64,000 nucleotides of DNA from Flammeovirgaceae bacterium SG7u.111 (lineage in GTDB: Bacteria > Bacteroidota > Bacteroidia > Cytophagales > Flammeovirgaceae), in assembly GCA_034044135.1 (NCBI GenBank), contig CP139021.1, forward strand, positions 4,665,635 through 4,729,634, in the 5' to 3' direction. This document shows, piece by piece, positions 9,090 to 61,780 of the stretch (position 1 is the stretch's first letter; each line of letters opens with the position of its first letter). The notes below the pieces were generated by a model. That model saw only the letters and a list, made by a program, of their open reading frames with translations, was not told the origin of the DNA and did not search any database. The position numbers and the translations under genes are program-made.

Positions 9090-12000
9090 CTAGAAGTCAA
9101 CCTGGATACCCATCATTATCTTCCTTGTTACAGGGTAGCTACCTTTGTCAATACCCCTTGTAGAAACACCATTTCCACCTACTTCAGGATCGTACCCTTC
9201 GTAGTCAGTGAAAGTGAATAAATTTTGAGCATTGGCATAAACCCTCAACCTGTCAATCTTGTTGTTGAACATGGCTTTAGGAAAGCTATAGCCTAACGAA
9301 ATCGTACGAACTCTTAAGAAGCTACCTTCTTCTAAAAAGAAATCTGACCTTGAACGGAAGTTATCGTGTTCAGAGTTTTGCCTTGCAGCCATAACATCAG
9401 AATCTGAATTGGCCTCGGTCCACATGTAGTACAAGTCTTTATGCCTCTTCATACTATATGCAAACAATTTAGATCCATTAAATACTTTATTTCCATGAGA
9501 GTAGAAGAAGTGTACATTGAAATCAAATCCTTTGTAATCTGCTCCTAATTTTAAACCTGCTTCAAATTTCGGCATTCCCGAACCTTGATACACCCTATCT
9601 TCGTCATTGATCTGACCATCAGTAGCATCTGGAATGCCGTCACCGTCAGTATCTACAGTAAGTTGGTCAATGTATTTCAAATCACCTAAGCGAGCGTTTG
9701 GCATGTATTCTTTTACAGCAGCAAGCTCATCCTCCGTTTTAATAATTCCATCGGTAGGAATAAGGAAGAATGCACCCGCCTCGTAGCCTGGTCTCATGTA
9801 CGTAGTGATATCTTGTTGATTAGCTCTCCAGTTACCCGGCTTACTATCAGTTAATGGAATACTCTCCAAACCAGCTAAATCAGTAATTTCATTTTGATTA
9901 GCAGTAAACACACCGGTTACGTTCCAATTCAACCCAGAACTTGACGTATGTCTATAGTTTGCCGAAAGTTCAATACCTTGGTTAACCATATTACCAATGT
10001 TCGAAACCTTAGACTTATAATCACTATTCCAGTCATTTGGAACATTTGTTCCGGTAGAGGCTGGTAGCAATACATCCAAGAGCATGTCTTTCTTGTCGTT
10101 TTTATATACATCGGCAGTAAAACTCAATTTCCCACTGAACATAGAGAGATCGACACCAATGTTTCTTGAAATATTTGATTCCCAACCAATAAGAGGGTTT
10201 GCATAACCACGCTGAATAGCGCCTGATACCAACTCGTCAGAACCTTCAGGTCCCCACACATAATCGATATTTGCATCTATGAAGCCCTCGTACAAATAAT
10301 TAGGAATACCTTCGTTACCAACTTCTGCATAACTACCCCTCAGCTTCAAGCTTTCAATTGCATCTACACCTTGTAAAAATGCTTCTTCACTGATATTCCA
10401 ACCAACAGAAACACCTGGGAAGGTTCCATATCGATTAGATTCTCCAAATTTAGAGGAGCCATCATGTCTGATACTTGCTGAAAATAGGTACTTGTCTTTG
10501 AAACTATATTGAACTCTTGCCAACTTACCAATCAAAACATTTGTCGTATTATAACCATTGAGCCTAGTCAATTCACTACCTCCGTTGAATACTTGAACAT
10601 CGTTGCTGATAAAGTTTCTCTTTTCAGTAGTTACTTCTTTAAATTCAGTATTCTCGTATGTATAACCTGCTAGTAAAGAGACATTGTGTGAGCCAAATTT
10701 CTTCTCGTACCTCAAAACATTTTCAAGTGTTCTTTTAGTTTGATACCTAAAATCTTCCTGCAAAATTGCATCTTTGCGGCTACCTAGCTCATTAAGCGTC
10801 CCATCTTCTGCATAAACCAAATACTGTGGTCTCCAAAAGTTTCTTTGATAGTTGTACTTGTTCAGACCAAAATTCACTTGATAAGTTAATCCATCAATGA
10901 TTTCGTATTTCAAGTTACCAGCAATATTGTAGCTATTTTCATCACGTACATCCGTCTGGTCAAGCAATTGAGAGAAATAACCTACATGATCTGGGTTATT
11001 GCCAGGAATGATCACCTCACTACCATTTTGTTCTAAATCTCCTAGCGGCTTACGATATGGACCTTGGAAAATTGCAAACTCGTACAAGCCCCATGGTTCC
11101 TGATCTTTTTGAGTAGCCTGAATCCCTACACTGGCAAAAGCCTCAAATTTTCCTTTTTTGAATGTGGCATTACCTCTTGTAGAAAACCTTTCATACCCAG
11201 ATTGGATTAGAATACCGTCCTGATTAAAGTAGTTGGTATTTACACTAAACTTAAGGTTATCCTGACCTCCAGATAGTGTCAAGTTATGGCTTTGGATTGC
11301 AGCATTGTCGTTTACAATAGAACCTACGAAGTCGGTATTATAATCCAATGCATCCGGATTGTAGAACAAAATTGAAGAATTACCTCCTTCGGCTCTGTTT
11401 ACCATTTCATCTACATACAAATGCTCTTCGGTATTCATTAGAGGAGTACCCGAAGTGATGTTCTGTATACCATAGTAAGAAGAAAAGCTTACTTTAGTTT
11501 TTCCTACTTCACCTCTTTTGGTTGTGATTAAAATCACACCGTTCGATGCTCTAGTACCATAAACAGCAGCCGCTGCTCCATCTTTCAAGATATCTACAGT
11601 TGCAATGTCTTCCGAAGCAATGTTAGGGTTTCCTTGGTAAGGAATGCCATCCACTACATAAAGCGGAGATGAAGAACCAGAGATTGATCCCAAACCTCTA
11701 ATTTGGATGTTTGCCTGATCACCTGGGCGACCACTGCTTTCTGTCACACTTACGCCAGCCATCTGACCTTGAAGTGATTTGGTAAAGTCAGAGGCAACTA
11801 CACGGGTCATTTCTTCAGCCTTAATAGAGGATACCGCACCTGTTACTTCCTTTTTCTTTTGAGTACCATAACCAATAACCACTACCTCTTCTAGTTGCTG
11901 GATATCTTCTTCGAGTGTAATTGTAAAAACAGTTTGCCCTTCTATTGCTACTTCTTGGGCTATAAAACCTATAAAACTAAAAACCAGAAGGTTGTTTCCA

Positions 12001-46751: not shown

Positions 46752-47945
46752 ATGCCAGGAACCGAATTGTTTGGTGCGGAAGAAAAAAAAGAAGTAATGG
46801 ACGTGCTGGAAACCGGCATTTTGTTCAGATATAACCACGACGAGCCTCGCCAAGGCATTTGGAAAGCCAAAGAGCTAGAGGAAGAAGTGAAGAAATTTAC
46901 CGGTGCGAAATATGCCCATGCCGTTACCAGCGGTTCTACGGCAGTTGCCTGCGTGATGGCAGCGGCAGGCCTTGGCTTCGGCGATGAGGTGGTAGTTACA
47001 CCATTTACTTATATAGCCACGGTAGAGGCGGTAATGTACGCCGGTGCGCTTCCTATTTTTGCCGAAGTAGACGAAAATCTTTGCATCACAGCTGAAGGAA
47101 TAGAAAAAGCTATTACGCCTAATACTAAAGCGGTAATGCTGGTACACATGTGCGGTGCTGCGGCTGATATGGACGCAATCCAAGTGGTTTGCGACAAGCA
47201 TAATTTGATTTTGGTTGAAGATGCAGGTCAAGCACTTGGCGCTTTTTACAAAGGAAAATCAGTTGGCCTTTTTGGTGTAGCTGGTGCATTTTCTTTCGAT
47301 TTCTTCAAAATCACCACAGCTGGTGAAGGCGGCGTATTCATCACCGATAGCGAAGAAGCTTACAACATAGCTCAACAATTCTCTGACCACGGGCACGACC
47401 ACATTGGCGATAACCGAGGAATGGAGCAACACCCAATCGTTGGTTTCAACTACCGACTTAGCGAGTTGCATGCAGCCGTTGGTTTGGCTCAAATGAGAAA
47501 AGTGGAATACATCCGCGAGCAAAGCAGAAAAAACAAGGCTTATATAAAAGAACAGTTGGCAACGGTAGATGGCGTTACTTTCCGCCCTATGCCCGATGCT
47601 GAAGGAGATTCTGGAACGTTCCTTAACTTCTTTTTGCCCGATACAGAAACAGCGCAAAAAGTGATGGCGCAGTTTAAAGAAGACGGCGTTGGCGGATGCA
47701 ACTATTGGTACACAAACATGTACCACTTCATCAACCAGTGGGATCACTTGAGAAACTTGAAGACTCCGTACAAACTCCCTATCCACCACCTAGGCGCACC
47801 TCAAGATTACAACAACCTTGACTTGCCTAAATCTCAAGAAGTAGTTGGCAGATTGATTTCTTTAGGTATCCGTTGCACATGGACGGAAGCCGAAATGGAA
47901 GAGTTGGCTGGCAAAATGGTGAAGTCGATAAAAGCTGTTCTTTAG
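46752..47945 (+). CDS. kdnA: DegT-family aminotransferase, predicted 8-amino-3,8-dideoxy-octulosonate (Kdo8N) synthase
   Basis: 397 residues. It is a PLP-dependent sugar aminotransferase of the DegT/DnrJ/EryC1/StrS fold, with Lys186 in FSFDFFKITTAGEGGVF as the PLP lysine and Asp157 in VEDAGQALGA. The partner immediately downstream is a KdnB-like oxidase. KdnA and KdnB were described in Shewanella oneidensis, where KdnB oxidises C8 of Kdo and KdnA aminates it, making 8-amino-Kdo for the LPS core. The pair order and motifs fit; the exact substrate is inferred. Role: sugar building block for the outer leaflet. A start at the ATG after AAAGTT (46752) fits the family N-terminus. Confidence 0.85.
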   Translation: MPGTELFGAEEKKEVMDVLETGILFRYNHDEPRQGIWKAKELEEEVKKFTGAKYAHAVTSGSTAVACVMAAAGLGFGDEVVVTPFTYIATVEAVMYAGALPIFAEVDENLCITAEGIEKAITPNTKAVMLVHMCGAAADMDAIQVVCDKHNLILVEDAGQALGAFYKGKSVGLFGVAGAFSFDFFKITTAGEGGVFITDSEEAYNIAQQFSDHGHDHIGDNRGMEQHPIVGFNYRLSELHAAVGLAQMRKVEYIREQSRKNKAYIKEQLATVDGVTFRPMPDAEGDSGTFLNFFLPDTETAQKVMAQFKEDGVGGCNYWYTNMYHFINQWDHLRNLKTPYKLPIHHLGAPQDYNNLDLPKSQEVVGRLISLGIRCTWTEAEMEELAGKMVKSIKAVL

Positions 47946-47967
47946 AAAGAAGATAACATTCCAAATC

Positions 47968-47995
47968 GTAGAGAGAAGGCATGCCTTCTCTCTAC
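47968..47995. repeat. Perfect 28-base palindrome between kdnA and kdnB
   Basis: A self-complementary 28-mer, GTAGAGAGAAGGC followed at once by ATGCCTTCTCTCTAC, with no separate loop. It lies 22 bases after the kdnA stop and 34 bases before the kdnB ATG. It has no T-run. It could be a processing or attenuation hairpin or a dimeric regulator site. Confidence 0.6.
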
Positions 47996-48028
47996 TACTA
48001 TTTGACATTAGATTTACCTTATTACATC

Positions 48029-49108
48029 ATGCACAAGATTTTAAAAAACGTAGATAAAGTTGTTTACGGTAGAGGCAGCTTTAACCAACTGGACGATATT
48101 TTAGCACCTATAAGGGCTGAAAATGATAATTTCATGGTCTTTGTAGTGGACAAATATTTTGAAGGCAAGCCTCTTGCCGATCGTGTTCCTGCCAAACCTG
48201 AAGACGTTGTTTTATTTGTAGATGTTGACGAACACGAGCCAACTACGGTACAAGTGGATACTATTCGCGATACAGTAAAAAGCGAGAAAGGCGTTCCTTC
48301 GGGCCTCATCGGAATAGGTGGAGGTAGCATTATGGACATTGCCAAAGCTGCTTCGCTTATGTTTACCAACGATGGTTCTTCTTCGCTTTACCAAGGTTTG
48401 AACTTGGTGAAAAATCCGGGAATCTACCATGCTGGCGTGCCTACCCTCTCGGGAACTGGTGCCGAGTGCTCAACTACTGCGGTAGTGACTGGTCCTGAAA
48501 AAAAATTGGGCTTGAAATGCGAATGGACTCCTTTCAACCAAATAGTGTTAGATCCGGAATTGATCTACAATGCCCCAAGAAACCAGTGGTTTTACACAGG
48601 CATGGATACGTACATCCACTGTATAGAATCGGAAACGGGTACATTCAAAAATGCCTTTAGCTCGGCGTATGCACAAGCATCGCTGGAACTTTGCCGCGAC
48701 GTGTTTTTGAGACCTGGCGGTGGGCAAAGCCCCGAAGGCGATGACAAACTGATGGTCGCTTCGCTGATGGGCGGATTGAGCTTAACTTACTCTGAAGTAG
48801 GCGCTTGCCATGCACTTTCTTACGGTTTATCTTTTGTATTTGGCTACCGTCACGGCATTGCCAACTGCATCGCTTTCGATAAGTTGGAAGATTTTTATGG
48901 TGACGGAGTAAAAGAGTTTAGGGAAATGGTAGCCCACAACCAAGTGGAAATACCTCAGAACCTAGCAAAAACTTGGACGGATGAGCAAATCACCCAAATG
49001 GCTGAAGTTTCTTACAAACTTGGGCACATGTGGACGCATGCAATAGGTCCTGATTGGGAGGAGAAACTTACTTTGAAAGATATAGAAGCGCTGTTCAGAA
49101 GACTGTAA
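48029..49108 (+). CDS. kdnB: Iron-type alcohol dehydrogenase, predicted 3-deoxy-manno-octulosonate 8-oxidase
   Basis: 359 residues from the ATG at 48029 (MHKILKNVDKVVYGRGSF). An in-frame ATG at 47981 exists but sits inside the palindrome and adds 16 unlike residues. It has the nucleotide-binding GIGGGSIMDIAKAA (residues 95-108) and the predicted metal ligands Asp193, His197, His261 and His275 (GMDTYIHCIES, GACHALSYGL, GYRHGIANC). KdnB oxidises Kdo at C8 before the KdnA step. Both genes are probably one transcript, closed by the terminator at 49138. Confidence 0.85.
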   Translation: MHKILKNVDKVVYGRGSFNQLDDILAPIRAENDNFMVFVVDKYFEGKPLADRVPAKPEDVVLFVDVDEHEPTTVQVDTIRDTVKSEKGVPSGLIGIGGGSIMDIAKAASLMFTNDGSSSLYQGLNLVKNPGIYHAGVPTLSGTGAECSTTAVVTGPEKKLGLKCEWTPFNQIVLDPELIYNAPRNQWFYTGMDTYIHCIESETGTFKNAFSSAYAQASLELCRDVFLRPGGGQSPEGDDKLMVASLMGGLSLTYSEVGACHALSYGLSFVFGYRHGIANCIAFDKLEDFYGDGVKEFREMVAHNQVEIPQNLAKTWTDEQITQMAEVSYKLGHMWTHAIGPDWEEKLTLKDIEALFRRL

Positions 49109-49442: not shown

Positions 49443-49781
49443 ATATTTGAAGGTAGAGGATTGAAGAGTCTACTATAGGACTGATGATAATTGCCACCAT
49501 TTGAATTAGCGAACAATTTATCTTAGAGAATAGACATATTCGAAAAATAGGCAAAGAAAATAAAGGAACAACTTGAATTCTGGCTCCTTAAATACTATAA
49601 TCATAGAAAGACAATGAATTACCTACCCTAATTCTAAAAGTTACGGATAACCAACTGATATTAAACATTACGGAACGTTTTATTAGGTTGAATGGCATAC
49701 TGGCTACAATTCAATTTCTATAAAAAATCAAACTGGCACTAAATTGACGCTTTTCTACAATTAAAAGAGCAGGAAATTATC
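49443..49781. other. AT-rich non-coding stretch before the first IS
   Basis: The 339 bases hold only short interrupted frames (e.g. ISIKNQTGTKLTLF near 49720) and no recognisable gene, RNA or repeat. It looks like decayed coding sequence. Confidence 0.35.
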
Positions 49782-49838
49782 TTAGCCCCCAATAAGGTTG
49801 GAGTGTTCTTTTAGACTTCAAAACAATAGATTTGAACC

Positions 49839-50150
49839 ATGAAATACAAGAAATGGACACTAGAAGAGAAGCTGGAGATTCTAAGGCTATCGGAAGAAAT
49901 AGGCATCTTAGAAGCCTGCCGCCAGCGGAAAGTAAGCACGGGCACTTTCTATAGCTGGAAGAAGAAATTCGAACACCAAGGTGAAGCGGGGCTAAAAGCG
50001 AACTACCAGGTCAAGGGCAAGGAACTCAAACAGGCAGAAGAGGAAAACAGGCTTCTCCGCAAGTTGCTCGCCGACAGGGAGATAGAACTGGAGGTACAAC
50101 GGGAGCTCTTAAAAAAAAAGTTTGGGACGTGCGATCCAAGAAAGATTTAG
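49839..50150 (+). CDS. IS3-family transposase OrfA
   Basis: 103 residues. HTH (EEIGILEACRQRKVSTGTFY) followed by a leucine-zipper coiled coil (EENRLLRKLLADREIELEVQ), the standard OrfA layout. Near the end the frame reads TTA AAA AAA AAG, where A AAA AAG at 50114-50120 is the classic -1 slippery heptamer leading into orfB. Confidence 0.85.
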   Translation: MKYKKWTLEEKLEILRLSEEIGILEACRQRKVSTGTFYSWKKKFEHQGEAGLKANYQVKGKELKQAEEENRLLRKLLADREIELEVQRELLKKKFGTCDPRKI

Positions 50151-51048
50151 TGGACAGCTTTTACGGGCGCTATAAGACAAGCAAGGCCAAGCTCGTCAAA
50201 TGGGCGGGCCTGGCAGAAAGCAGTTATATTACCACAAGCCTAGCGGGGGCAGGAAAGGGAACAGGCCCTCTGTGGAGACTTATCACCAAACAAAGGGATA
50301 TGTAGGGGAACAGGAGGTCTTGGGGTCTATCAAAGCCATTTTGGGACATGAATTTATAGACTGTGGCTATCGCCTGATGGCCTCTTACCTACAAAAAGGG
50401 GGCTATCGCATCAACCATAAGAAAGTATACAGGATCATGAAACAGGCAGGGCTCTTAAAAACCGCGGACAGGATAGACAGGGGCGGCGCCGGCCGCAAGT
50501 TTGTGGAGTTCAGGAAGGTAAAGACCTCTAGGCCCATGGAATGCCTGGAAATGGATATCAAGATGGTATGGATACCTGCCATGGGGAAAAACGCCTATCT
50601 GTTGTCGCTCATAGATGTACATACCCGCAGGATATTGGGGGGCATGTTCTCCTTCAGTATCAAGCAAGAGCAGGTCATCGGCTTCTTGTCGGCGGTGTTG
50701 GAGGAATATGAATGTCCTGGCAACGTGGTCATCAGGAGCGATAACGGAAGCCAGTTTATAGCTACACGGGTGCGGGAATACTTGGGCTTGGTAGGCGTGG
50801 GACAGGAGTTCACCCATGTGGCCACCCCAGAAGAAAATGCCCATATAGAAGCCTATCATGGCATATTGAGACAAGATGTTTTTGATAGGGTAGAGTATAC
50901 GGCCTTTGGGGAAATAGAGCAGGTCTTGAAGAGGTATGTGCATTTCTACAACCACGACAGGCTGCATGGGCTGTTGGGAAAGGTGACACCTATCGAGAAA
51001 TGGGAAGCCTGTGAACACTTGATATTGCCCAGAAAAAAAACCGCTTGA
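50120..51048 (+). pseudogene. IS3-family transposase OrfB, frameshifted
   Basis: After the -1 slip, the frame reads VWDVRSKKDLVDSFYGRYKT then LVKWAGLAESSY up to about 50225. There the family reading jumps to another register (YYHKPSGGRKGNRP), consistent with a 2-base insertion or 1-base loss at TATATTACC. The rest is an intact rve-type integrase core: Asp in CLEMDIKMVW, Asp in IRSDNGSQF and Glu in HIEAYHG. An ATG at 50200 could still give a 282-residue piece. Likely inactive because the N-terminal part is out of frame. Confidence 0.7.
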
Positions 51049-51106
51049 ATTTTTAACCCGATTCTAAAAGGTTACTCTTGTTTTATAGGGGTTAAAACAA
51101 TAAAGC

Positions 51107-51219: not shown

Positions 51220-51265
51220 TGATGTGTCCCCCATTTTTAAACAGAATCGGTTTTTTAATAAGGTC

Positions 51266-52105
51266 TTAATTGATTAAATAATTCATGGAAGGTATTGGCG
51301 GTTCAATAGATGGATGCTCCCTTTCATGATTGTAATAATAGAAATAATTCTTGAGACCTTCAGCCAGTTGAGTCCCATTCGCAAAATCATGCAGGAATAC
51401 ATACTCATATTTCACAATCCTCCATAGCCTTTCTATGAAGGCATTATCGGTAGCCCTGCCTTTTCCGTCCATACTCAACTTGGTCTTGCCCACCTCAAGG
51501 ACCGCTGAGGCGAATACGTCCGAAGTATATTGGCTTCCTTGGTCGGTATTGACAATCTCAGGCTTTCCCCAGCTACTGCATGCCCTTTCAAATACTTCCG
51601 CACACCATCCAGCCGTCATTGTATTGCTCAGCGACCAGTCCAGTACGAAACGGGTAGCCACATCAATCCATGCGGCCAGATATAGATACCCCCCTGACAG
51701 CCCGATGTATGTGATGTCCGTCTGCCAGGCTTGATTGGTCCTTTCTATCTCCATGCCTCTAAGCAGGTAGGGACAAACCTTGTTCCCCGGTGCCGGCTTT
51801 GAAGTATGGGACCCGGAAAGTATTGAGCTGAGTCCCATGACCTCGTAGTATAAGCGGCTGACTTTCTTGAGGTTGGCATTGATGCCATGTACCCTCTTCA
51901 GCCAAGTGCGCATCCTGCGTGGCCCTTTGTCTGGGCGGACCAGATAGTGCTCACCCATCAGGCGCATGATCCTAAGATTCATGCCGCTTTCTGGGACAGG
52001 CTGGTAATAAAGCCTCCCCCTATTTATCCCGAGCAGCTGGCACTGCCTGACCAGACTCAAATTCTCCGAACGGCTGATACCCCGCAATTTTGCCTCTTGG
52101 CACAT
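51266..52105 (-). CDS. IS3-family transposase OrfB, copy 1
   Basis: 279 residues. rve-type DDE core: Asp in WQTDITYIGL, Asp in VNTDQGSQYTSDVF and Glu in NAFIERLWRIVKYE. The N-terminus holds an HTH_21-like region (RRMRTWLKRVHGI). The ATG overlaps the orfA stop by one base (TGATG), so it depends on translational coupling or slipping at the A-run in CTAAAAAAAACG. The sequence matches the copy at 56886 residue for residue. Confidence 0.92.
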   Translation of the reverse strand: MCQEAKLRGISRSENLSLVRQCQLLGINRGRLYYQPVPESGMNLRIMRLMGEHYLVRPDKGPRRMRTWLKRVHGINANLKKVSRLYYEVMGLSSILSGSHTSKPAPGNKVCPYLLRGMEIERTNQAWQTDITYIGLSGGYLYLAAWIDVATRFVLDWSLSNTMTAGWCAEVFERACSSWGKPEIVNTDQGSQYTSDVFASAVLEVGKTKLSMDGKGRATDNAFIERLWRIVKYEYVFLHDFANGTQLAEGLKNYFYYYNHEREHPSIEPPIPSMNYLIN

Positions 52106-52388
52106 CAGTCGAGCGTTTTTTTTAGAAACTCATTCTCTACCTGTAGCTTGCCGATAATCCGCAGCAAATCGTCTTGGGCTTTCTCGTTTTCCTTTGAAAC
52201 TTTGTGCCTACTGTTTCCATGCTCAAATAGCACATCGCTCTGCTCAAGCAGAATCTCCTTCCATTTCTTTATCTGGGAGGGGGCACCTTGAACTTCTGTG
52301 CAATCTGGGGAATTGTCAGGTGTTCCTTGACTGCCTCAATGGCTACCTGCTTCTTGAATTTGGTAGTGTAACTTTTTCGCTTTGCCAT
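52105..52388 (-). pseudogene. IS3-family OrfA, frameshifted, copy 1
   Basis: From ATG 52388 it reads MAKRKSYTTKFKKQVAIEAV then KEHLTIPQIAQKFKVPPPR and stops. A one-base gain at GGTGCCCCCTCCC restores SQIKKWKEILLEQSDVLFEH and the normal end LKKTLD. The length, 284 bases, is one short of a full frame. The same change is in copy 2. OrfA is therefore probably not made as a full protein. Confidence 0.75.
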
Positions 52389-52532
52389 AATCGAATATAA
52401 AGTTTTTTCGGACCTTATTCAGTTGTTCGATTTTTGGGGTACACTACAAATCAATTAGCATTTTCTATAAATATGTCAGCCCTTCAGGCTTTTTCGGGGA
52501 TACATTCATTAGAACAAATAAATTATAAGCAT

Positions 52533-52911
52533 ATGAATATGAAAAAACTAGCACTACTTCTTATCTCCCTCACTCCCATCTGGTTTTCTTGTACACCCAC
52601 AGCCATTGAAACGGATGACTGCAAAGGCGATGTGGAAGATACAAGGTGGAAAATAGACCCATGGAACAAAGGAGCTTGGCAAACAGATGCTTACCGCAAT
52701 GTATTTCTGGATGCGGGCTATCCTCAAGAAGAAATAGACGCCAAGCTTGCCAAGGCGTATGCCGATCTGTTGAAGGACCCAACCTCGTGTATTTTGAAGT
52801 GGAAGATTCTTTAAGTTATGTTTCCGACCTAAAGAACAAGGATGCCCGCACAGAGGGACTCTTTCCTACGGGATGATGGTGGCGGTGCGGTTCGATAAGA
52901 AAGAGGTGTTC
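52533..52911 (+). pseudogene. GH8 (reducing-end xylose-releasing oligoxylanase-like) lipoprotein, frameshifted and truncated
   Basis: From ATG 52533 it has a lipobox (TPIWFSC) and reads GAWQTDAYRNVFLDAGYPQE then EIDAKLAKAYADLLKDPTS. The next frame continues NLVYFEVEDSLSYVSDLKNK, DARTEG, and a third reads LSYGMMVAVRFDKKEVF. Joined, this is the N-terminal region of a GH8 enzyme of the Rex type. At least two frameshifts, and the last about 250 residues are gone. The sequence beyond 52911 is unrelated. Confidence 0.75.
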
Positions 52912-53266
52912 AATTTCAAGTTGAAGTTTCTCTGTCTCTAAGTCAGGTATGTTTGTCTTATTCTCAGCCATATTTGGTCTCACATAATATTCGCTAGCGT
53001 TTGGCTATGCAGCGTGCGCCTTTAAACCAACACACTTGCAAGCTGCAAATAGCCAAATTGATTTTCCAAATATAATATTCAAACCGTCAAATCAAAGATT
53101 TGGCGGGGATTCCATAACGCTAAAACATTACATATATTTGACTGTCAGCATGCTATCTGAAGTGATGAATATCGCTTAAAAAAGCGGTTAATTTAAGACT
53201 ACAATTTGGGGATATTATAAATAATTATAATAATTTTGCACTTCGTGTTTATTTAAAAAAATAGCT
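52912..53266. other. Junction sequence upstream of the acetylation cassette
   Basis: The 355 bases become increasingly AT-rich toward the MBOAT gene. On the minus strand a start-like fragment (MAENKTNIPDLETEKLQLEI, ATG near 52971) runs into the GH8 remnant and is cut there, which suggests a rearrangement joint. An imperfect pair TAGCGTT ... AACGCTA (about 52993 and 53116) bounds a stretch with no frame. Nothing else is recognised. Confidence 0.4.
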
Positions 53267-54685
53267 TTGGTTTTTAGTTCTACAATATTTCTATTCATTT
53301 TTCTGCCCCTAGTGATAATAGTAAACTATTTACTTTCAAATAAAATAAGAAATAGTTTTTTACTTTTAGTCAGCTTATTCTTTTATGCATGGGGAGAAGG
53401 TATACTAGTATTAGTAATGTTAGGCTCTATTTATATAAATTATATAGCAGGCGTTGGTATATCTGAATTATCAAACAAGAAAATAGCAAAAATAGTATTG
53501 GCGTTAGCCATTTGTGCAAATCTGTCAATTTTATTCTATTTTAAATACTCTAATTTTTTCATTGATAACCTGTCAATTTTAGTCAATTTTGAAAACTTTA
53601 ACTTCAAAGAGATTTTGCTTCCGATTGGTATATCTTTTTTTACTTTTCAAGGAATATCCTATTTAATAGATGTCTTTAGGAATGATACAAAGGTTCAAAA
53701 GAACCCTATTCATTTAGGATTATATATATCATTATTCCCTCAATTAATTGCTGGTCCGATAGTTAGATATCATGACATCGCAATGGAAATTGAAAATCGC
53801 AAAATTGATTTATCTATGTTTTCCGATGGATTATTTCGATTCATTAGAGGATTGTCAAAAAAAGTTTTAATAGCTAACTCTGCAGCATTAATTGCAGATA
53901 AAGCATTTGAAATGAATATCAACGAACTACCTACGTTAGTCAGCTGGCTGGGAATCATCTGTTACGCGCTTCAAATTTATTTTGATTTTTCAGGTTATTC
54001 TGACATGGCTATTGGACTTGGCAAAATATTAGGGTTTAATTTTAAGGAGAATTTCAACTATCCCTATATTTCAAGATCCATTCAGGATTTTTGGCGTAGA
54101 TGGCATATTTCATTGTCTACGTGGTTTAGAGATTATCTTTATATTTCATTAGGAGGCAATAGACTTGGTAAATGGATTACATATAGGAATCTTTTTATCG
54201 TATTTTTAGTGACGGGCCTTTGGCACGGAGCAAGTTGGAATTTTATTGTTTGGGGTTTATTTCATGGTCTTTTCTTAATTCTTGAGCGGAATAATATTAT
54301 CAACGTCAAAATGTTTCCTAGATTTATTCAGCATATTTATTTGCTGTTAGTAGTTCTTGTTGCTTGGGTGTTTTTTAGGACCGACAATTTGCTTGATTCT
54401 ATATATTATCTAAGTACCATGATTGGATTCAATAATGGCAATAATTATGAACCAATAATGTATTTAACAAATTATACATTATTGATGCTATTGACTGGTG
54501 TTATTTTTGTCACACCAATTAGATTATGGTTGGAGATGAAGCTTAGAATCAATTTTTTTATTTGGAAAAGACTGAACTCTATAAATTTATTTTTAAAACC
54601 ACTTAGTTATCTCTTTTTGTTAATTCTGGTGTTAGTTGAATTAGCGCAATCTAGCTATAATCCATTTATTTACTTCCGTTTTTAA
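53267..54685 (+). CDS. MBOAT-family O-acyltransferase (AlgI-like)
   Basis: 472 residues from a TTG start at 53267 (MVFSSTIFLFIFLPL), matching the family N-terminus. About ten membrane helices. MBOAT motifs: SFFTFQGISYLIDVFRN, FPQLIAGPIVRY, YFDFSGYSDMAIGLG, FWRRWHISLSTWFRDYLYI and the catalytic His320 in GLWHGASWNF. It moves acetyl groups across the inner membrane for polysaccharide acetylation. It is 7 bases upstream of its SGNH partner, so the two form an operon. Codon use is strongly AT-rich compared with genes on both sides, which points to horizontal transfer. Confidence 0.92.
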   Translation: MVFSSTIFLFIFLPLVIIVNYLLSNKIRNSFLLLVSLFFYAWGEGILVLVMLGSIYINYIAGVGISELSNKKIAKIVLALAICANLSILFYFKYSNFFIDNLSILVNFENFNFKEILLPIGISFFTFQGISYLIDVFRNDTKVQKNPIHLGLYISLFPQLIAGPIVRYHDIAMEIENRKIDLSMFSDGLFRFIRGLSKKVLIANSAALIADKAFEMNINELPTLVSWLGIICYALQIYFDFSGYSDMAIGLGKILGFNFKENFNYPYISRSIQDFWRRWHISLSTWFRDYLYISLGGNRLGKWITYRNLFIVFLVTGLWHGASWNFIVWGLFHGLFLILERNNIINVKMFPRFIQHIYLLLVVLVAWVFFRTDNLLDSIYYLSTMIGFNNGNNYEPIMYLTNYTLLMLLTGVIFVTPIRLWLEMKLRINFFIWKRLNSINLFLKPLSYLFLLILVLVELAQSSYNPFIYFRF

Positions 54686-54692
54686 TATTATC

Positions 54693-56387
54693 ATGGGTAG
54701 ATTCGCATTCTTATTTAGTATTCTTTTTACTATTACAATTTTAGTTGGTTTCTTTTTGAGCAGTTTTCGCTCTCTTCCTACAAATTCTTATGTTGCTCTG
54801 GAAGGTAAATTCAAGAAAGATGATGTGTTTCAGGTTTTTTATAAACTAAAAGGAGGACAAATTCAGGAGATTAACTCTAAAAGAATGAAAGTTGAAGGAA
54901 GTGAACTTATTCAACAAATTATTTTTGAATTACCTGAAATTGATTCTATTACTGAATTTAGAATTGACCTAGGTATTAATTCTTCACAAGAAGAAATTGG
55001 ATTGAACTCAATTTCAATCTATACAAATTCAGGATCTTTTGAATTTACAGGCGACGAGATTTGGAAAGTATTTAGAGTCAATCCCTTCCTAGAGCGAAAT
55101 GATAATATTTTAACTACTAAAATAATTTCTAACAGATATGATCCCTATATCATCTCGGATGATATGAGTAGCAAGATGCAATCATTATTTGTACCTTATC
55201 AAGTAGTCGATTATCCATTTTTGTATGCGTTTTTATTCACTTTGTTGTTTACAACTATTTTAGTAATAAACCCTTTGCATATTTCTATAGTCAATTTATC
55301 AAAGTATTTATTTATTTTATTGTTTTTCATTATTCTATTGATGCCAATCATTGATCAATTATTCTCGATTTCCCCAGATATCGAAAACCAAGAAAAAAGA
55401 GAGTTAAGTCAATTACCGGAATTTTCAGTATCTAAAGAATATGCTTATAGATTTGAAAATTATTTTAATGATAATTTCGGCTTTAGAGACCACTTAATTA
55501 GCCTAGGGTCAAAGTTTAAAGCGATTATATTTAATACCTCCAATAATCCTAACGAGACAATGATAGGTAAAGATGGTTGGTTATTTTATAATAAGAAAAG
55601 TATTTTTGAAAGCTATACTCATTCAAATTTATTGACTGCTGAGCAACTTATAGTTTTGAAAAATAGATTAGAAAAAAGAAAAGTAGATTTGAAAAAAGAA
55701 GGAATAGACTATTTACTTGCTTTTTGGCCTAATAAGCATAGTATTTATCCAGAAAAACTTCCATTGGCGATGAAGATGCAAGTGAAAGATACATTAAGTT
55801 TGGCTGACCAATTAATTGAATATTTTACTGAGCAAGATGTTAATATCAACTTTATAGATATTAGGTCCGCTTTGATTGATAAAAAGAGTAGTTATCAAAT
55901 ATACAAAAAGCTAGATACTCATTGGAATCTATTAGGTGGATACTTTGCTTACTACAATTTCCTCGAAAAAAGTAAACCTTTAATCAATGTTGCCCCGATT
56001 GGTTTAGATTCTTATTCTATTTCTTGGGAAGAATCTAAAAAAGGAGATTTGGTGGGTATATTGGGTCTTAGTAATAATACTGTATTTAAAGAGCAAATCC
56101 CCTCCTTAAGATTACGAGATAAATCATTAACATATTCTCAAGAATCGACTATTTCATTTCCTGCTAGATCAATAATAACTAGAAATCCTAATGCTAAAGA
56201 AAGACGTAAAGTTCTGTTCTTTGGAGACTCATATTCTACATGTTTAGAGCCTTTTTTGTCTCAGACTTTTATGGACGTCATATATATACGATCTCGCTTT
56301 GATGTTGAGATGGTTAAAAAAGTTAATCCAGATATTGTTATCGATGCATTTGTTGAGAGACAAATGATAGAAAAAATAGGAGAATGA
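54693..56387 (+). CDS. AlgX/AlgJ-like SGNH O-acetyltransferase with an extra N-terminal beta domain
   Basis: 564 residues. Membrane helix 1-22, then about 140 residues of beta-rich sequence (DVFQVFYKLKGGQIQEINSK ... FELPEIDSITEFRIDLGINS), like lectin-like modules in surface-polysaccharide enzymes. Two more membrane helices (about 172-192 and 203-224) lead to the AlgX/AlgJ-type domain with GKDGWLFYNKKSIFE, Asp408/His410 in KLDTHWNLLGG and Asp512/Ser513 in FFGDSYSTCL, the SGNH-type catalytic set. It would pass acetyl from the MBOAT to a periplasmic glycan. The fusion of an N-terminal beta domain and extra helices is unusual for AlgJ/AlgX. AT-rich like its partner. Confidence 0.88.
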   Translation: MGRFAFLFSILFTITILVGFFLSSFRSLPTNSYVALEGKFKKDDVFQVFYKLKGGQIQEINSKRMKVEGSELIQQIIFELPEIDSITEFRIDLGINSSQEEIGLNSISIYTNSGSFEFTGDEIWKVFRVNPFLERNDNILTTKIISNRYDPYIISDDMSSKMQSLFVPYQVVDYPFLYAFLFTLLFTTILVINPLHISIVNLSKYLFILLFFIILLMPIIDQLFSISPDIENQEKRELSQLPEFSVSKEYAYRFENYFNDNFGFRDHLISLGSKFKAIIFNTSNNPNETMIGKDGWLFYNKKSIFESYTHSNLLTAEQLIVLKNRLEKRKVDLKKEGIDYLLAFWPNKHSIYPEKLPLAMKMQVKDTLSLADQLIEYFTEQDVNINFIDIRSALIDKKSSYQIYKKLDTHWNLLGGYFAYYNFLEKSKPLINVAPIGLDSYSISWEESKKGDLVGILGLSNNTVFKEQIPSLRLRDKSLTYSQESTISFPARSIITRNPNAKERRKVLFFGDSYSTCLEPFLSQTFMDVIYIRSRFDVEMVKKVNPDIVIDAFVERQMIEKIGE

Positions 56388-56394
56388 GGAACTA

Positions 56395-56424
56395 AACCAC
56401 TCTGTACTGGAAGTACAGAGGTTT
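56395..56424 (+). repeat. Hairpin after the acetylation operon
   Basis: CTCTGTACT / AGTACAGAG (56400-56420) with a GGA loop, extended by AAACC / GGTTT-like flanks. It lies 13 bases after the stop without a T-run. The shape is like subterminal hairpins of IS200/IS605 elements, or it may be a terminator. Confidence 0.5.
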
Positions 56425-56602
56425 GTGAGTAGGGACTGAAAGTCACACTCTTATTTCAACATAAAGTTGGAATTTTCGCTATCATTCATTATCCTTGCAA
56501 TGGTGTTCTAAATATTCATTCTCCATCTCATCTGTGATGCGGTGTAGTGTACCCCAAAAATCGAACAACTGAATAAGGTCCGAAAAAACTTTATATTCGA
56601 TT

Positions 56603-56886
56603 ATGGCAAAGCGAAAAAGTTACACTACCAAATTCAAGAAGCAGGTAGCCATTGAGGCAGTCAAGGAACACCTGACAATTCCCCAGATTGCACAGAAGTT
56701 CAAGGTGCCCCCTCCCAGATAAAGAAATGGAAGGAGATTCTGCTTGAGCAGAGCGATGTGCTATTTGAGCATGGAAACAGTAGGCACAAAGTTTCAAAGG
56801 AAAACGAGAAAGCCCAAGACGATTTGCTGCGGATTATCGGCAAGCTACAGGTAGAGAATGAGTTTCTAAAAAAAACGCTCGACTGA
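56603..56886 (+). pseudogene. IS3-family OrfA, frameshifted, copy 2
   Basis: Identical to copy 1, including the one-base loss in GGTGCCCCCTCCC that stops the frame at KFKVPPPR. The normal C-terminus (SQIKKWKEILLEQSDVLFEH onward) is in the -1 frame and ends TGA at 56884-56886. Confidence 0.75.
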
Positions 56887-57725
56887 TGTGCCAAGAGGCA
56901 AAATTGCGGGGTATCAGCCGTTCGGAGAATTTGAGTCTGGTCAGGCAGTGCCAGCTGCTCGGGATAAATAGGGGGAGGCTTTATTACCAGCCTGTCCCAG
57001 AAAGCGGCATGAATCTTAGGATCATGCGCCTGATGGGTGAGCACTATCTGGTCCGCCCAGACAAAGGGCCACGCAGGATGCGCACTTGGCTGAAGAGGGT
57101 ACATGGCATCAATGCCAACCTCAAGAAAGTCAGCCGCTTATACTACGAGGTCATGGGACTCAGCTCAATACTTTCCGGGTCCCATACTTCAAAGCCGGCA
57201 CCGGGGAACAAGGTTTGTCCCTACCTGCTTAGAGGCATGGAGATAGAAAGGACCAATCAAGCCTGGCAGACGGACATCACATACATCGGGCTGTCAGGGG
57301 GGTATCTATATCTGGCCGCATGGATTGATGTGGCTACCCGTTTCGTACTGGACTGGTCGCTGAGCAATACAATGACGGCTGGATGGTGTGCGGAAGTATT
57401 TGAAAGGGCATGCAGTAGCTGGGGAAAGCCTGAGATTGTCAATACCGACCAAGGAAGCCAATATACTTCGGACGTATTCGCCTCAGCGGTCCTTGAGGTG
57501 GGCAAGACCAAGTTGAGTATGGACGGAAAAGGCAGGGCTACCGATAATGCCTTCATAGAAAGGCTATGGAGGATTGTGAAATATGAGTATGTATTCCTGC
57601 ATGATTTTGCGAATGGGACTCAACTGGCTGAAGGTCTCAAGAATTATTTCTATTATTACAATCATGAAAGGGAGCATCCATCTATTGAACCGCCAATACC
57701 TTCCATGAATTATTTAATCAATTAA
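56886..57725 (+). CDS. IS3-family transposase OrfB, copy 2
   Basis: 279 residues, identical to the OrfB at 51266-52105. DDE residues are present (QTDITYI, NTDQGSQY, FIERLW). The start ATG overlaps the orfA stop by one base. It would supply OrfB but no OrfAB fusion. Confidence 0.92.
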   Translation: MCQEAKLRGISRSENLSLVRQCQLLGINRGRLYYQPVPESGMNLRIMRLMGEHYLVRPDKGPRRMRTWLKRVHGINANLKKVSRLYYEVMGLSSILSGSHTSKPAPGNKVCPYLLRGMEIERTNQAWQTDITYIGLSGGYLYLAAWIDVATRFVLDWSLSNTMTAGWCAEVFERACSSWGKPEIVNTDQGSQYTSDVFASAVLEVGKTKLSMDGKGRATDNAFIERLWRIVKYEYVFLHDFANGTQLAEGLKNYFYYYNHEREHPSIEPPIPSMNYLIN

Positions 57726-57745
57726 GACCTTATTAAAAAACCGAT

Positions 57746-57898
57746 CCTGTCTAATGCCCCTGTAAAAATCCACGTCCTATGGACGTGGTCAGAGACCGTT
57801 CCACGGGTTTTACCCTAGTAGAAATATCGACCCATGTTTACTTTTATGAAGTTGTCCCCACAACAAAAAAAGTAAAACAAATGAGTCGATTCTTAAAA
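57746..57898. other. Unassigned remnant between IS copy 2 and the IS982 element
   Basis: 153 bases. A stem CCACGTCC / GGACGTGG (57771-57789) and a possible start MSRFLKLT at 57881 that is cut by the IS982 end suggest debris of another element. No family can be named. Confidence 0.35.
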
Positions 57899-58003
57899 TT
57901 AACGTGAGTTTTTTTTTGCTAACCTACTGAAATATAAGTTCTTATATAGGAAAAATGAGATTTTAAATTGATATTAGGTTTTCCAAGACAAAACATCAAC
58001 TAA

Positions 58004-58867
58004 GAGCATGTTTAAAAATTTAATTCATGTTTTCTTTTGAGCCTGTTGAGTATTATTTGGCAGTTTTGCCATAGCACCCAAGCTTCTTGGCTTTTTGTGG
58101 TCTTTTCATAGTCCTTGGACAGCCTCCTGAAGAAATTGAGCGTCCCGAAAGTCCTTTCCGTGACCCACCTCCACTTGATGGGCACGAAGCCCTTGGCGGT
58201 CGGTGGGCAAGAGGAAATCTCGACCCCCACACCCCTGATATTTTCCTCCACCCAGCCCATGAAGCCTTCTTTGTAGGCATGGTCGGCCAGTATCTTCTTA
58301 ATCCTATCCAGGTAGCCCAGCAAGGGGTCGGCCACCCGTTGCCCTGCCGCCCCATCAGGCTCGTTGGCCGGGCCGGCGAGCACGCCCCATACCAACCCCA
58401 ACGTGTCGGTGACCACGTGCCTTTTCCTGCCGTCCACCTTCTTGTTACCGTCTATGCCGGTGTCCTGGCCTATGAAAGGCGCACGCCTTACCGACTGGCT
58501 GTCAATGGATAGCATACTGGGGGTCTCCTTTTTGTTTTCCCCCACTCTCCATTTCTTGTTCAACTGGGCGTTGATACGCTCCAAGGTGTTGTCCTGTTTC
58601 CATCTGCGGAAATAATAATAGACACTCTGCCATGGGGGGTATCCACCGGAGAGGTTCCGCCATTGCATCCCCGTGCGCAAGATATAAAATATGCCATCCA
58701 CCACGTCGCGCAAATCATATTTACGCTTTCTTTGCACAGGTAGGCATTCTTTGATATATTCCCATTGCTGGGCAGTCAATCGGCTTTGGTCGGTTTCCAT
58801 AAACTTTGTTGTTTGGTCACTACAAAGTTTTGGGCTGCCCAGCTTTTTTCAAAATTTAAACATGCTC
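58004..58867 (-). mobile_element. IS5-family element, complete
   Basis: 864 bases flanked by TAA on both sides (58001-58003 and 58868-58870) as target duplication. Terminal repeats: GAGCATGTTTAAA at the left and TTTAAACATGCTC at the right. One transposase gene inside. It looks intact and is the youngest layer here. Confidence 0.92.
58012..58800 (-). CDS. IS5-family transposase
   Basis: 262 residues. N-terminal DUF4096-type domain (LRDVVDGIFYILRTGMQWRN), DDE core with Asp in MLSIDSQSVRRAP, Asp in ILADHAYKEGF and Glu in WVTERTFGTLNFF. The start at 58800 follows the right-end repeat by about 65 bases. Full length and intact. Confidence 0.92.
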   Translation of the reverse strand: METDQSRLTAQQWEYIKECLPVQRKRKYDLRDVVDGIFYILRTGMQWRNLSGGYPPWQSVYYYFRRWKQDNTLERINAQLNKKWRVGENKKETPSMLSIDSQSVRRAPFIGQDTGIDGNKKVDGRKRHVVTDTLGLVWGVLAGPANEPDGAAGQRVADPLLGYLDRIKKILADHAYKEGFMGWVEENIRGVGVEISSCPPTAKGFVPIKWRWVTERTFGTLNFFRRLSKDYEKTTKSQEAWVLWQNCQIILNRLKRKHELNF

Positions 58868-58882
58868 TAAAATCTCATTCCA

Positions 58883-59719
58883 ATGGCACAATTTAATGAA
58901 AATATCTTGATAAAGATCTTCATCGATATCGATGATTTCTGTAAATGTCACGAAGCATGGCTCGAAGCACACCCTGGCAGGCCCTATGGGGAATGGAGAT
59001 CCAACCTTAGCAGGAGCGAGGCGATGACTATCTTGGTATGCTATCAATTATCGGGCTATAAGAACTTTGCCTATTACTATGAGAAGATGGTGCTCCCCGA
59101 GCTTTCAGGTTATTTCCCAGGCTTGGTGGGGTACAAGAGCTTTCTGTCGCTCATACCTTCCTGTCTCGACCAATTGTACATGTATGCCACTTGGCAGGCC
59201 GCCCAATCTGCCAGGACGGGCATCTACTATGTGGACAGCAAGAAACTGCCCGTATGCGACAATAGGCGCATCCACAGCAACAAGGTCTTTGCAGGGGTGG
59301 CAGGACGGGGGAAATCATCCACGGGCTGGTTCTACGGGCTCAAGCTCCACTTGGTGGTCAACAATATGGGCGAGGCCGTCTCTTTCCTGTTCACGCCCGC
59401 CAATGTGGGGGACAACAACCATAAGGTGCTCGGCCACCTGTTGGACAGGCTCAAGGGGGCATGTTATGGCGACAGGGGATACCTGTCCAGCCTCTTTGAA
59501 GAGTTCTATTGCAAAGGGCTCAAGCTTGTCACGAAGATCCGCAAGAACATGAAGAACGCCTTGGTGCCCTTACATGAAAGATATAGGCTCATGAAGAGGG
59601 CGATGATCGAATCGGTCAATGATATCTTGATGACCGTATGCGACATAGACCATACCAGGCACAGAAGCCCTGTCAATGCAATCGCGCACATGACATGCGC
59701 GCTCATCGCCTACAATTAA
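58883..59719 (+). CDS. IS982-family transposase
   Basis: 278 residues, full length. DDE residues in IYYVDSKKLPVCDN, ACYGDRGYLSSLFEE and MIESVNDILMTVCDIDHTRH, the typical IS982 ending. The nested IS5 element separates this gene from its own left end, so expression may be altered. Confidence 0.9.
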   Translation: MAQFNENILIKIFIDIDDFCKCHEAWLEAHPGRPYGEWRSNLSRSEAMTILVCYQLSGYKNFAYYYEKMVLPELSGYFPGLVGYKSFLSLIPSCLDQLYMYATWQAAQSARTGIYYVDSKKLPVCDNRRIHSNKVFAGVAGRGKSSTGWFYGLKLHLVVNNMGEAVSFLFTPANVGDNNHKVLGHLLDRLKGACYGDRGYLSSLFEEFYCKGLKLVTKIRKNMKNALVPLHERYRLMKRAMIESVNDILMTVCDIDHTRHRSPVNAIAHMTCALIAYN

Positions 59720-59785: not shown

Positions 59786-60630
59786 TAATTCAAAAAAGTA
59801 TTTGACCGAGAGCAAAACACCTCATTCGGCTTTTTATCACCTATAGAGCTGTTGCCTCCTCTGTCAGTTGTAAAGCTCCATATACCGCTTTATTCCTCCA
59901 TACAAATCCTTGCCATTCTCATACGAATAGAGGTAGATATCCTCGTACTTGAGGCTTCGCCAGAAACGCTCGATAAAGATATTATCGGTTGCCCTGCCAA
60001 TACCGTCCATACTTACCCTTGTGCCATTTTTCTCGACAGTTCCAACAAAATCATCACTGGTAAACTGAGAGCCTTGGTCTGTATTGAGTATTTCAGGTGT
60101 CCCATGTTTCTCAATTGCGTTTTTTAGTGTTCGCACGCACCAGTCCGTGTCCATGGTGTTGGACAATGACCAGCCGACAATAAAACGGCTATGGAGATCT
60201 ATCATGGCCATCAGATACATAAAGCCACCCTTGATGGGTATGTTGCCCAAACTTGGTTCGGGCGATGGACCTTCAGCCCTCGGGGCAGGTAGGGGTACTT
60301 TTTATGCCCTTTGTTCCCTTTTGAGGTAGGGGGCCTGGCGCAATGGCCTGGATACACATAAGCTTGTAGAGGCGCTCGACACGCTTATGGTTGACCCTTA
60401 TCCCCTTGTCTTCCCTGAGCCATGTGGTCATGGAGGCTGTCCCCCTAAACGGATGCTTGGTGTATTCTTTATCAATCATATCCATCAGTTTTAGGTTTAA
60501 GGCATTTTCTGGCTTTGGCTTATAACTCAACCCAGACCTGGCGATTGAAAGCAAAGAGCATTGGCGGCTTATACTGAGCTTTGCATGTGCCTTATCAACT
60601 ATTGCCCGCCTTTCTTTAGTTGTGCACTGG
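59786..60630 (-). pseudogene. IS3-family OrfB fragment with frameshifts
   Basis: Pieces read ERRAIVDKAHAKLSISRQCS, then LSIARSGLSYKPKPENAL, then after a shift near 60260 FMYLMAMIDLHSRFIVGWSL and NTDQGSQFTSDDF with Glu in NIFIERFWRS. Another shift after MELYN leads to DRGGNSSIGDKKPNEVF and the end. At least two frameshifts; not functional. Confidence 0.8.
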
Positions 60631-60689: not shown

Positions 60690-60989
60690 ATGAAACAGTA
60701 CGAAAAGGAATTTAAAACAATGATAGTGGGCCTGCTCGAATCCGGACAACCAGCCAGGCAAGTGGCGGAAGACTACGGTTTGAGTGCGAGCATGATAAGG
60801 AGATGGCGAAGGGAGTCGAGGGGCGGAAAGGAAGCCTTCACCGGAAAGGGGGTGGCCTCCCTGACACCCGAGCAAAAGAAGATACAACAATTGGAAAAAG
60901 AACTTCGGGAGTCCAGGATGGAGGCCGAGATATTAAAAAAAGCCATCGGCATCTTCTCCCAAAAAGACGGGACAAATACCGGTTCATAG
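60690..60989 (+). CDS. IS3-family transposase OrfA (nested element)
   Basis: 99 residues. HTH (GQPARQVAEDYGLSASMIRR) and leucine zipper (KKIQQLEKELRESRMEAEIL). The A-run at 60935-60941 (TTA AAA AAA GCC) is a likely -1 slippery site producing OrfAB. Confidence 0.85.
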   Translation: MKQYEKEFKTMIVGLLESGQPARQVAEDYGLSASMIRRWRRESRGGKEAFTGKGVASLTPEQKKIQQLEKELRESRMEAEILKKAIGIFSQKDGTNTGS

Positions 60990-61780
60990 AGATGAACCGT
61001 CACCGGTATCCTGTTGGGAAAATGTTGGGTTGTCTAGGGGTGAGCAAAAACGGGTACTATACCTGGGAACGGAGGAAGGACAAAAAGAAGACCTCCCGAA
61101 AAGAGGAACTGAAAAGGAAGGGCATTCTCGTGTCCAGGTCCTATGTGGCCAGATTGATGAAGGAGGAGGGGCTGAGGAGCTGTGTGCGCAAGAAATACAT
61201 TGCCACGACCGGCTCGGGGCACGGCCACCCGGTTGCCGAGAACACCCTGAAAAGGAATTTCAAGGTAGAAGAAACGGGTAAAGTGTGGGTGCCAGATATC
61301 ACATATATAAGGGTAAATGACGGCTGGTGCTACCTGACCAGTATGCTCGACCTTGCCGACAGGAAAGTGGTAGGCTGGTCGCTTTCAAGCGATATGACGG
61401 CCGAGAACACGGTGATAGCGGCTTGGGTGAATGCGAGGAAAAACAGGCAGATAAAAGACGGGTTCGTCCTCCATTCGGACAGAGGTGTGCAATACGCCTG
61501 CAACAAGACAACAAGTGTTTTTTCTTTCAACAGAAAAATGAAACAGAGCATGTCAAGGAAAGGAGACTGTTGGGACAACGCCGTGGCCGAGAGTTTTTTC
61601 AAGAGCATCAAGTACGAGTGGCTCAACAGGTTCGAGTTCACTTCCTACGACGAGGTTTACAGGCAGGTGGCATGGTATATCAACTGGTACAACACCAAAA
61701 GGCTCCACGCTAGCCTTGGCTACAAAACACCTAAAGAAAAAGAAGCGGAACTTAATTTTATTCAATCAATGGCGGCCTAA
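60941..61780 (+). CDS. IS3-family transposase OrfB (nested element), internal deletion
   Basis: The -1 frame after the slip reads SHRHLLPKRRDKYRFIEMNR then VGKMLGCLGVSKNGYYTWER. The usual HTH_21 stretch with the YGSPRI motif is missing: SRKE runs straight into ELKRKGILVSRSYVARLMKE, a loss of roughly 30 residues that keeps the frame. The rve core is complete (WVPDITYI, LHSDRGVQYA, NAVAESFFKS). Probably inactive. Confidence 0.8.
   Translation, partial: SHRHLLPKRRDKYRFIEMNRHRYPVGKMLGCLGVSKNGYYTWERRKDKKKTSRKEELKRKGILVSRSYVARLMKEEGLRSCVRKKYIATTGSGHGHPVAENTLKRNFKVEETGKVWVPDITYIRVNDGWCYLTSMLDLADRKVVGWSLSSDMTAENTVIAAWVNARKNRQIKDGFVLHSDRGVQYACNKTTSVFSFNRKMKQSMSRKGDCWDNAVAESFFKSIKYEWLNRFEFTSYDEVYRQVAWYINWYNTKRLHASLGYKTPKEKEAELNFIQSMAA

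Follow-up and report, generated by a model that had tools for sequence, protein, structure and literature searches.

A candidate MBOAT-SGNH O-acyltransferase gene pair stranded among insertion sequences in a Flammeovirgaceae genome

Two adjacent genes at positions 53267-56387 of a 64,000-nucleotide stretch of the genome of Flammeovirgaceae bacterium SG7u.111 (assembly GCA_034044135.1, contig CP139021.1, positions 4,665,635 to 4,729,634 of the forward strand; hereafter the window) probably encode a laterally acquired two-gene MBOAT-SGNH polysaccharide O-acyltransferase, of the type that is present in flavobacterial polysaccharide clusters, which became stranded in a nest of insertion sequences (IS). 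The pair is bracketed by two inverted IS copies, an arrangement in which an earlier note on this DNA had seen a composite transposon or an invertible switch for the acetylation of a surface glycan. That note described the layout accurately and over-read its mechanism, and an MBOAT-SGNH acyltransferase in acquired DNA is of a kind already known.

The acyltransferase pair and its relatives

The family assignments that had been proposed for the two gene products were borne out by profile searches. The first product matched the MBOAT family (PF03062, E 6.7e-26, 91.8 bits with a cut-off of 27) and carries the conserved histidine in a WHG motif, while its C-terminal residues, FIYFRF, are identical in four relatives (L031, L032, G021 and G045) and fit FXYXXF. 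The latter is a C-terminal acyl-shuttle motif, and the invariant tyrosine of the PatA hexapeptide carries the acetyl group (PMC12148441). The second product matched ALGX (PF16822, E 2.8e-19, 70.2 bits, cut-off 26.5) and aligned with AlgJ (4o8v, E 4.3e-4), including the DTHW motif. It additionally contains a GDSY motif, and residues D408/H410 and D512-S513 are invariant across three aligned sequences. The structural model of this SGNH protein is mediocre (predicted local distance difference test score, pLDDT, 62); it displays three likely membrane helices and an N-terminal beta-sandwich, and its best fold matches include PatB1 (the best), AlgJ and AlgX. Judged from sequence, the catalytic motifs of the pair look intact, and the pair may be read as a working acyltransferase for which acetyl would be the likeliest group. 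Families, motifs, fold and gene context in relatives thus support the O-acetylation cassette put forward in the earlier note. In the proposed mechanism, the MBOAT protein would load acetyl from acetyl-CoA onto the C-terminal tyrosine of FIYFRF, the SGNH serine would take up the acetyl group for transfer to a polysaccharide beyond the inner membrane, and the extra beta-sandwich would perhaps hold the polymer or the assembly machinery.

The low guanine-plus-cytosine (GC) content that had been noted for the cassette was confirmed by windowed analysis, as the three 1-kb bins covering 53001-56000 have values of 0.287-0.299, compared to 0.350-0.498 in the other 61 bins. The GC of the individual genes is 0.295 (MBOAT) and 0.294 (SGNH) against a mean of 0.426 (standard deviation 0.034) for 306 sampled open reading frames (ORFs) of at least 300 amino acids, two of which have a GC of 0.31 or below. 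The codon distance of MBOAT is extreme, with four of the 306 sampled genes as far or farther. SGNH matches were obtained in 56 of 390 genomes of the order, the source genome included, whereas the host family's 17 other genomes all lacked one; within its own genome the protein matched only itself. The closest pairs that were found are those of Maribacter arcticus (L031; MBOAT 56% and SGNH 35% identical), where the GC of the pair is 0.29, as it is here, of Flagellimonas oceanensis (L032; 53% and 28%, respectively) and of G021 (55% and 32%). The neighbours of the pair in each of the three are sugar-nucleotide, glycosyltransferase and related genes, as identified by eye from ORF translations; the only family test in these loci was a Wzy_C-like match in L031, at 29.0 bits below its cut-off of 31.7. 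No ORF in these three loci (19-22 kb) matched a transposase comparison set composed of the types present in the window and in a second IS nest of the same genome (L072, described below).

Upstream of the IS nest in the window lies an aminotransferase gene with an iron-type alcohol dehydrogenase gene (46752-49108), a pair which may be akin to KdnA/KdnB for amino-Kdo. A dehydrogenase of at least 66% identity is encoded by 11 of the 17 other family genomes, and the two genes are adjacent in the six loci that were read; both the cassette and the IS are absent from all six, one of which ends 0.8 kb downstream. A tblastn search of plasmids with SGNH returned 13 records, every one of them below 60% identity and with a query coverage short of 80%, while the IS had no match in plasmids. 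On composition and distribution, the MBOAT and SGNH genes were probably acquired laterally from another bacterium.

A number of observations weigh against this interpretation. A donor sequence of high DNA identity was not encountered, and lateral transfer is therefore argued from composition, absence in relatives and distant homologues. The codon use of SGNH is less extreme than its GC, with 19 of the 306 sampled genes at least as distant, and all 17 other family genomes contain relatives of MBOAT, with identities reaching 45%, only SGNH being missing. Furthermore, MBOAT starts with TTG where all four compared relatives have ATG, and its expression or translation may be weak given this start codon. 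Finally, the transposase comparison set would miss types other than those from which it was built.

Residues ~30-155 of the SGNH protein are predicted to form a beta-sandwich, which was confident when folded together with relatives (pLDDT 85), and this N-terminal part of the window protein had no Pfam or NCBIfam match at E 1. The domain occurs twice in the SGNH protein of G021, and alone, as a separate lipoprotein-like ORF, in the Maribacter and Flagellimonas loci (L031:5537-6049 and L032:11602-12138) as well as in nine further loci (L176-L184). It was detected in 10 of 395 Bacteroidota genomes searched, including the source genome; G021, which may or may not have been part of that sample, was not among the matches. 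The nine other genomes are all members of a single further family within the same class; in each, the domain is encoded as a lipoprotein-like ORF of 176-185 amino acids, which by eye lies among polysaccharide-type genes in all nine loci (in L177 the next gene encodes a Polysacc_synt flippase, E 8.2e-54). No MBOAT or SGNH relative was present in any of these loci at E 1e-3, with 15.5-20 kb read for each.

Attempts to name the domain yielded no assignment. The best Foldseek match had an E value of 6.4e-3, and the alignment with CBM60 (VIA-align 2, Z 7.8 over 99 residues at 2.7 Å) was tied with other C2-like sandwiches and was not decisive. Four separate lipoprotein-like ORFs gave NCBIfam matches below cut-offs only, several of them confined to the signal region; the most repeated of these was to the Riean_0653 family, in three of the four ORFs (E 0.005-0.017, 16-17.8 bits, cut-off 57). 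Pfam returned two weak matches under the cut-off, both for one of four such ORFs. A literature search retrieved no paper on this locus or on the domain, which is no proof of absence. An uncharacterised domain that links an O-acyltransferase with a lipoprotein-like protein of polysaccharide clusters is the more useful lead from this locus, as the link makes the manner in which such enzymes find their polymer a testable question.

The insertion sequence copies on either side of the pair

Base-by-base alignment of the two bracketing copies revealed zero mismatches over 1203 bp (51246-52448 and 56543-57745), the first mismatch being at 57746, and a repeat search of the window likewise picked up the inverted arms, separated by 4094 bp; the identity and orientation given in the earlier note therefore stand. 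Transposase B of copy 1 belongs to the IS3 family (NF033516, 190.2 bits, above the cut-off of 160). Elements of this family have TG...CA ends and an overlap of orfA and orfB with a slippery A run. Such ends are present on copy 1 and on a third full copy in this genome of 7.72 Mb and two contigs (C1:2626319-2627548), in which orfA is open and an A run precedes the overlap. The orfA C tract is C5 in both window copies and C6 in the third copy, corresponding to a deletion of one nucleotide, and copy 2 sides with copy 1 at all four of the further bases that differ between copy 1 and the third copy. The common frameshift and this agreement indicate that one of copies 1 and 2 arose from the other, or that gene conversion homogenised them. 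The C5/C6 difference itself could be explained by slippage or, less likely, by a sequencing error. As judged from their reading frames, neither window copy would be able to make OrfAB transposase in cis.

A target duplication was found at none of the copies, with flanks of ATT/TTG for copy 1 and CGG/ATT for the third copy, while the right side of copy 2 is lost. For the unit as a whole, CAA stands before 51220 on the left, and the right boundary is destroyed. Later rearrangement can cause the loss of such duplications, and their absence is commonly put down to recombination between IS copies or to adjacent deletions (PMC11708052). The same four bases, GCGG, precede the left ends of copy 2 (56539-56542) and of the third copy (C1:2626315-2626318), possibly by chance or through target preference.

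The presence of same-family IS copies on both sides of a foreign-looking cargo is what a composite transposon would predict, i.e. that 51220-57745 moved, or still moves, as one piece through its outer IS ends, and the intact third copy could supply transposase in trans. However, 26 bp are missing from the outer end of copy 2, such that a unit delimited by the two outer ends is at present immobile. Moreover, the orfA frameshift leaves neither flanking copy encoding a complete transposase, no matching target duplication is seen, and SGNH, as stated above, has no second match in the genome. The unit could have worked before its outer end was lost, and past mobility is thus conceivable; given these defects, we nevertheless regard the composite transposon of the earlier note as improbable and do not retain it.

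The second proposal was that recombination between the inverted copies flips 52449-56542 and thereby turns acetylation on and off. A perfect inverted identity of 1203 bp at a spacing of 4.1 kb is ample for homologous recombination, recombination between IS is a common cause of rearrangement (PMC11708052), and a RecA-dependent inversion of the segment is physically possible; to this extent the proposal holds. Its function as a switch is very doubtful, however, as the two copies are directed away from the cassette and it is the same left end that faces it on either side, such that a flip would leave the immediate surroundings of the genes unchanged and any effect on expression would require transcription through a whole IS against its genes. 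In addition, the ORFs of at least 80 amino acids within the segment (the GH8 remnant described below, MBOAT and SGNH) include no recombinase, and those that adjoin it are IS transposases. The segment does contain a candidate promoter, but matches of this kind occur about as often as expected by chance (five in the window, 4.1 expected) and are no evidence by themselves, and the other orientation was found in no relative. It is the identical cassette-proximal IS ends, together with the lack of an internal recombinase ORF, that make a switch unlikely.

While the MBOAT and SGNH genes do lie between the copies, as had been reported, the segment is not the cassette alone, because its first 0.5 kb is the remnant of a GH8 gene. 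This remnant is spread over three frames; its read-through matches PDB 1wu4 (E 5.3e-16, query 43-127), and the rest of the enzyme is cut off. No match to PF01270 was obtained elsewhere in the genome, although this profile also missed the broken remnant and other broken pieces could therefore escape it. The eroded piece indicates that the DNA between the IS copies has its own history of assembly and erosion, more in keeping with an IS nest than with a purpose-built element. The spacer up to 53266 has no further copy in the genome as a repeated element, except for repeats of 33-42 bp at the left end of 52449-53266. This short repeat, just inside copy 1 (52451-52493), is found again at C1:2674045 and at C1:2380323, in the vicinity of other transposase-like ORFs.

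It was also considered whether copy 1 and the third copy exchanged flanks, thereby inverting ~2.09 Mb. ATT is common to the left flank of copy 1 and the right flank of the third copy, each copy's own flanks differ, and sampled GC skew places the two sites on opposite replichores (the sign of the gene-corrected skew switches between the 3.40- and 3.55-Mb samples and once more between those at 7.00 and 7.40 Mb; the samples at 0.15, 0.75 and 4.72 Mb are exceptions). However, the probability that at least one 3-bp match of this sort between flanks arises by chance is ~0.10, and this inversion is accordingly kept at low weight; the other five flank pairs do not match, and no syntenic relative was found. 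When the neighbours of the third copy were looked for in a relative, the one with the closest DUF1080 gene (73%) had other neighbours.

In the order of events that we infer, the two IS copies would be inactive residents of an IS nest that grew around dispensable foreign DNA. Dead IS copies can give rise to what looks like a perfect composite-transposon or switch layout, and inspection of the outer ends, the transposase frames, a third copy and the target duplications is a cheap means of separating a dead layout from a working one.

The insertion sequence nest and a second nest in the genome

The features of the nest and of the segment within it are listed in Table 1. Between 48 and 64 kb the window contains transposase ORFs of the IS3, IS5 and IS982 types, eight in total, with two being pieces of one broken gene. 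By comparison, among 40 sampled regions of 20 kb each from this genome, 33 are devoid of transposases of the compared types, and the other seven contain one or two. The element outside copy 1, the ends of which are given by the match and are not settled, shares 99.8% identity over 1326 bp with a copy in the L072 nest. Part of the IS200-like remnant (57765-57901) is 89% identical over 138 bp to C1:2859184, where by eye a TnpA-like start of an IS200 follows; the compared L072 proteins belong to IS200/IS605 (NF033573, 131.5 bits).

Table 1. Positions of the acyltransferase genes, the bracketing copies and neighbouring elements in the window
Feature	Position	Strand	Details
IS3-family element outside copy 1	49776..51101	+	orfA 49839-50150, orfB 50200-51048; NF033516 164.7 bits, cut-off 160
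IS3-family copy 1	51220..52448	-	1229 bp; both ends present, TG...CA; orfA frameshifted; orfB open, 51266-52105
GH8 (exo-oligoxylanase-like) 5' remnant	52449..52945	+	two frameshifts; truncated; right boundary approximate
Candidate promoter TTTG-N22-TANNTTTG (weak)	53205..53238	+	upstream of MBOAT gene; Bacteroidota-like
MBOAT acyltransferase (AlgI/PatA/DltB-like)	53267..54685	+	472 amino acids; TTG start; C-terminal FIYFRF
SGNH/AlgX-AlgJ-like acyltransferase	54693..56387	+	564 amino acids; likely membrane-anchored; N-terminal beta-sandwich, ~residues 30-155
IS3-family copy 2	56543..57745	+	identical to copy 1 without its last 26 bp (outer end); same orfA frameshift
IS200-like truncated left end	57746..57901	+	abuts copy 2; left boundary not settled
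IS5-family element	58003..58868	-	terminal inverted repeats, 21-bp arms; NF033580 162.9 bits, cut-off 110
IS982-family transposase	58883..59719	+	NF033520 182 bits, cut-off 130
Broken IS3-family transposase, two pieces	59864..60554	-	NF033516 below cut-off for both, E 3.7e-37 and 4.3e-8
IS3-family element	60690..61780	+	NF033516 277.2 bits, cut-off 160

The genome contains five MBOAT genes. A second AT-rich one (L072:8097-9560, GC 0.31), with a partner gene of GC 0.26, is also situated among eight transposase ORFs. Six of these reach an NCBIfam transposase cut-off (IS3, IS200/IS605 or ISAs1 models), while the other two (5096-5473 and 9604-10155) have an IS3 match below the cut-off; the former additionally scores high enough to pass the cut-off for an IS66 accessory model. 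This second pair (L072:7185-9560) is located at C1 ~3.132-3.135 Mb, and the only match of the partner is to DUF1574, below the cut-off. The remaining three MBOAT loci (GC 0.38-0.42) have no ORF matching the transposase set within 18-19 kb. As the second nest was met via the MBOAT paralogues, it represents an observation on two of five MBOAT loci rather than a tested association. Additionally, the 53.6-kb contig C2 (L071), perhaps a plasmid, carries a polysaccharide-like cluster with glycosyltransferase- and flippase-like ORFs (by eye), its own MBOAT gene and a partner gene of 0.32 GC.

It may be speculated, although we consider it a long shot, that MBOAT-SGNH pairs are interchangeable acetylation cartridges which pass from one surface-polysaccharide system of Bacteroidota to another, with IS nests repeatedly capturing and reshuffling them, as the two AT-rich pairs in this genome might suggest, with the beta-sandwich that is shared with a small lipoprotein acting as the docking part for a new polymer.

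Comparison with known systems

In the composite transposons Tn5 and Tn10, inverted IS copies surround a cargo and one copy is defective. The same layout is seen here, but one copy has lost its outer end and both are frameshifted. The invertible capsule promoters of Bacteroides are short promoter segments flipped by a site-specific invertase; they resemble the present locus in combining surface polysaccharide genes with inverted repeats, whereas here repeats of 1.2 kb, formed by IS, surround whole genes and no invertase is seen.

The alginate O-acetylation system, AlgI with AlgJ/AlgX, similarly places an MBOAT protein beside an SGNH protein of AlgX/AlgJ type (PF16822, with AlgJ and AlgX among the best folds). 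In contrast to that system, no alginate genes were recognised around the pair described here, and its SGNH protein is modelled with three likely membrane helices and an N-terminal beta-sandwich. PatA/PatB, which O-acetylate peptidoglycan, share with the pair the FXYXXF C-terminus, the conserved histidine and an SGNH partner (PMC12148441), and Bacillus PatB1 is the best fold match. However, the relatives of the pair sit in exopolysaccharide- or O-antigen-like clusters, and peptidoglycan would thus be an unlikely substrate. Finally, a likeness to DltB/DltD, the system of teichoic acid D-alanylation, is evident from the matches of MBOAT to TIGR04091 (DltB; E 1.3e-46) and to DltB structures (E 6.7e-28), but the former reaches 159.5 bits, far under the cut-off of 375, and the acyl-shuttle motif is here located on the MBOAT protein itself rather than on a DltX-like protein.

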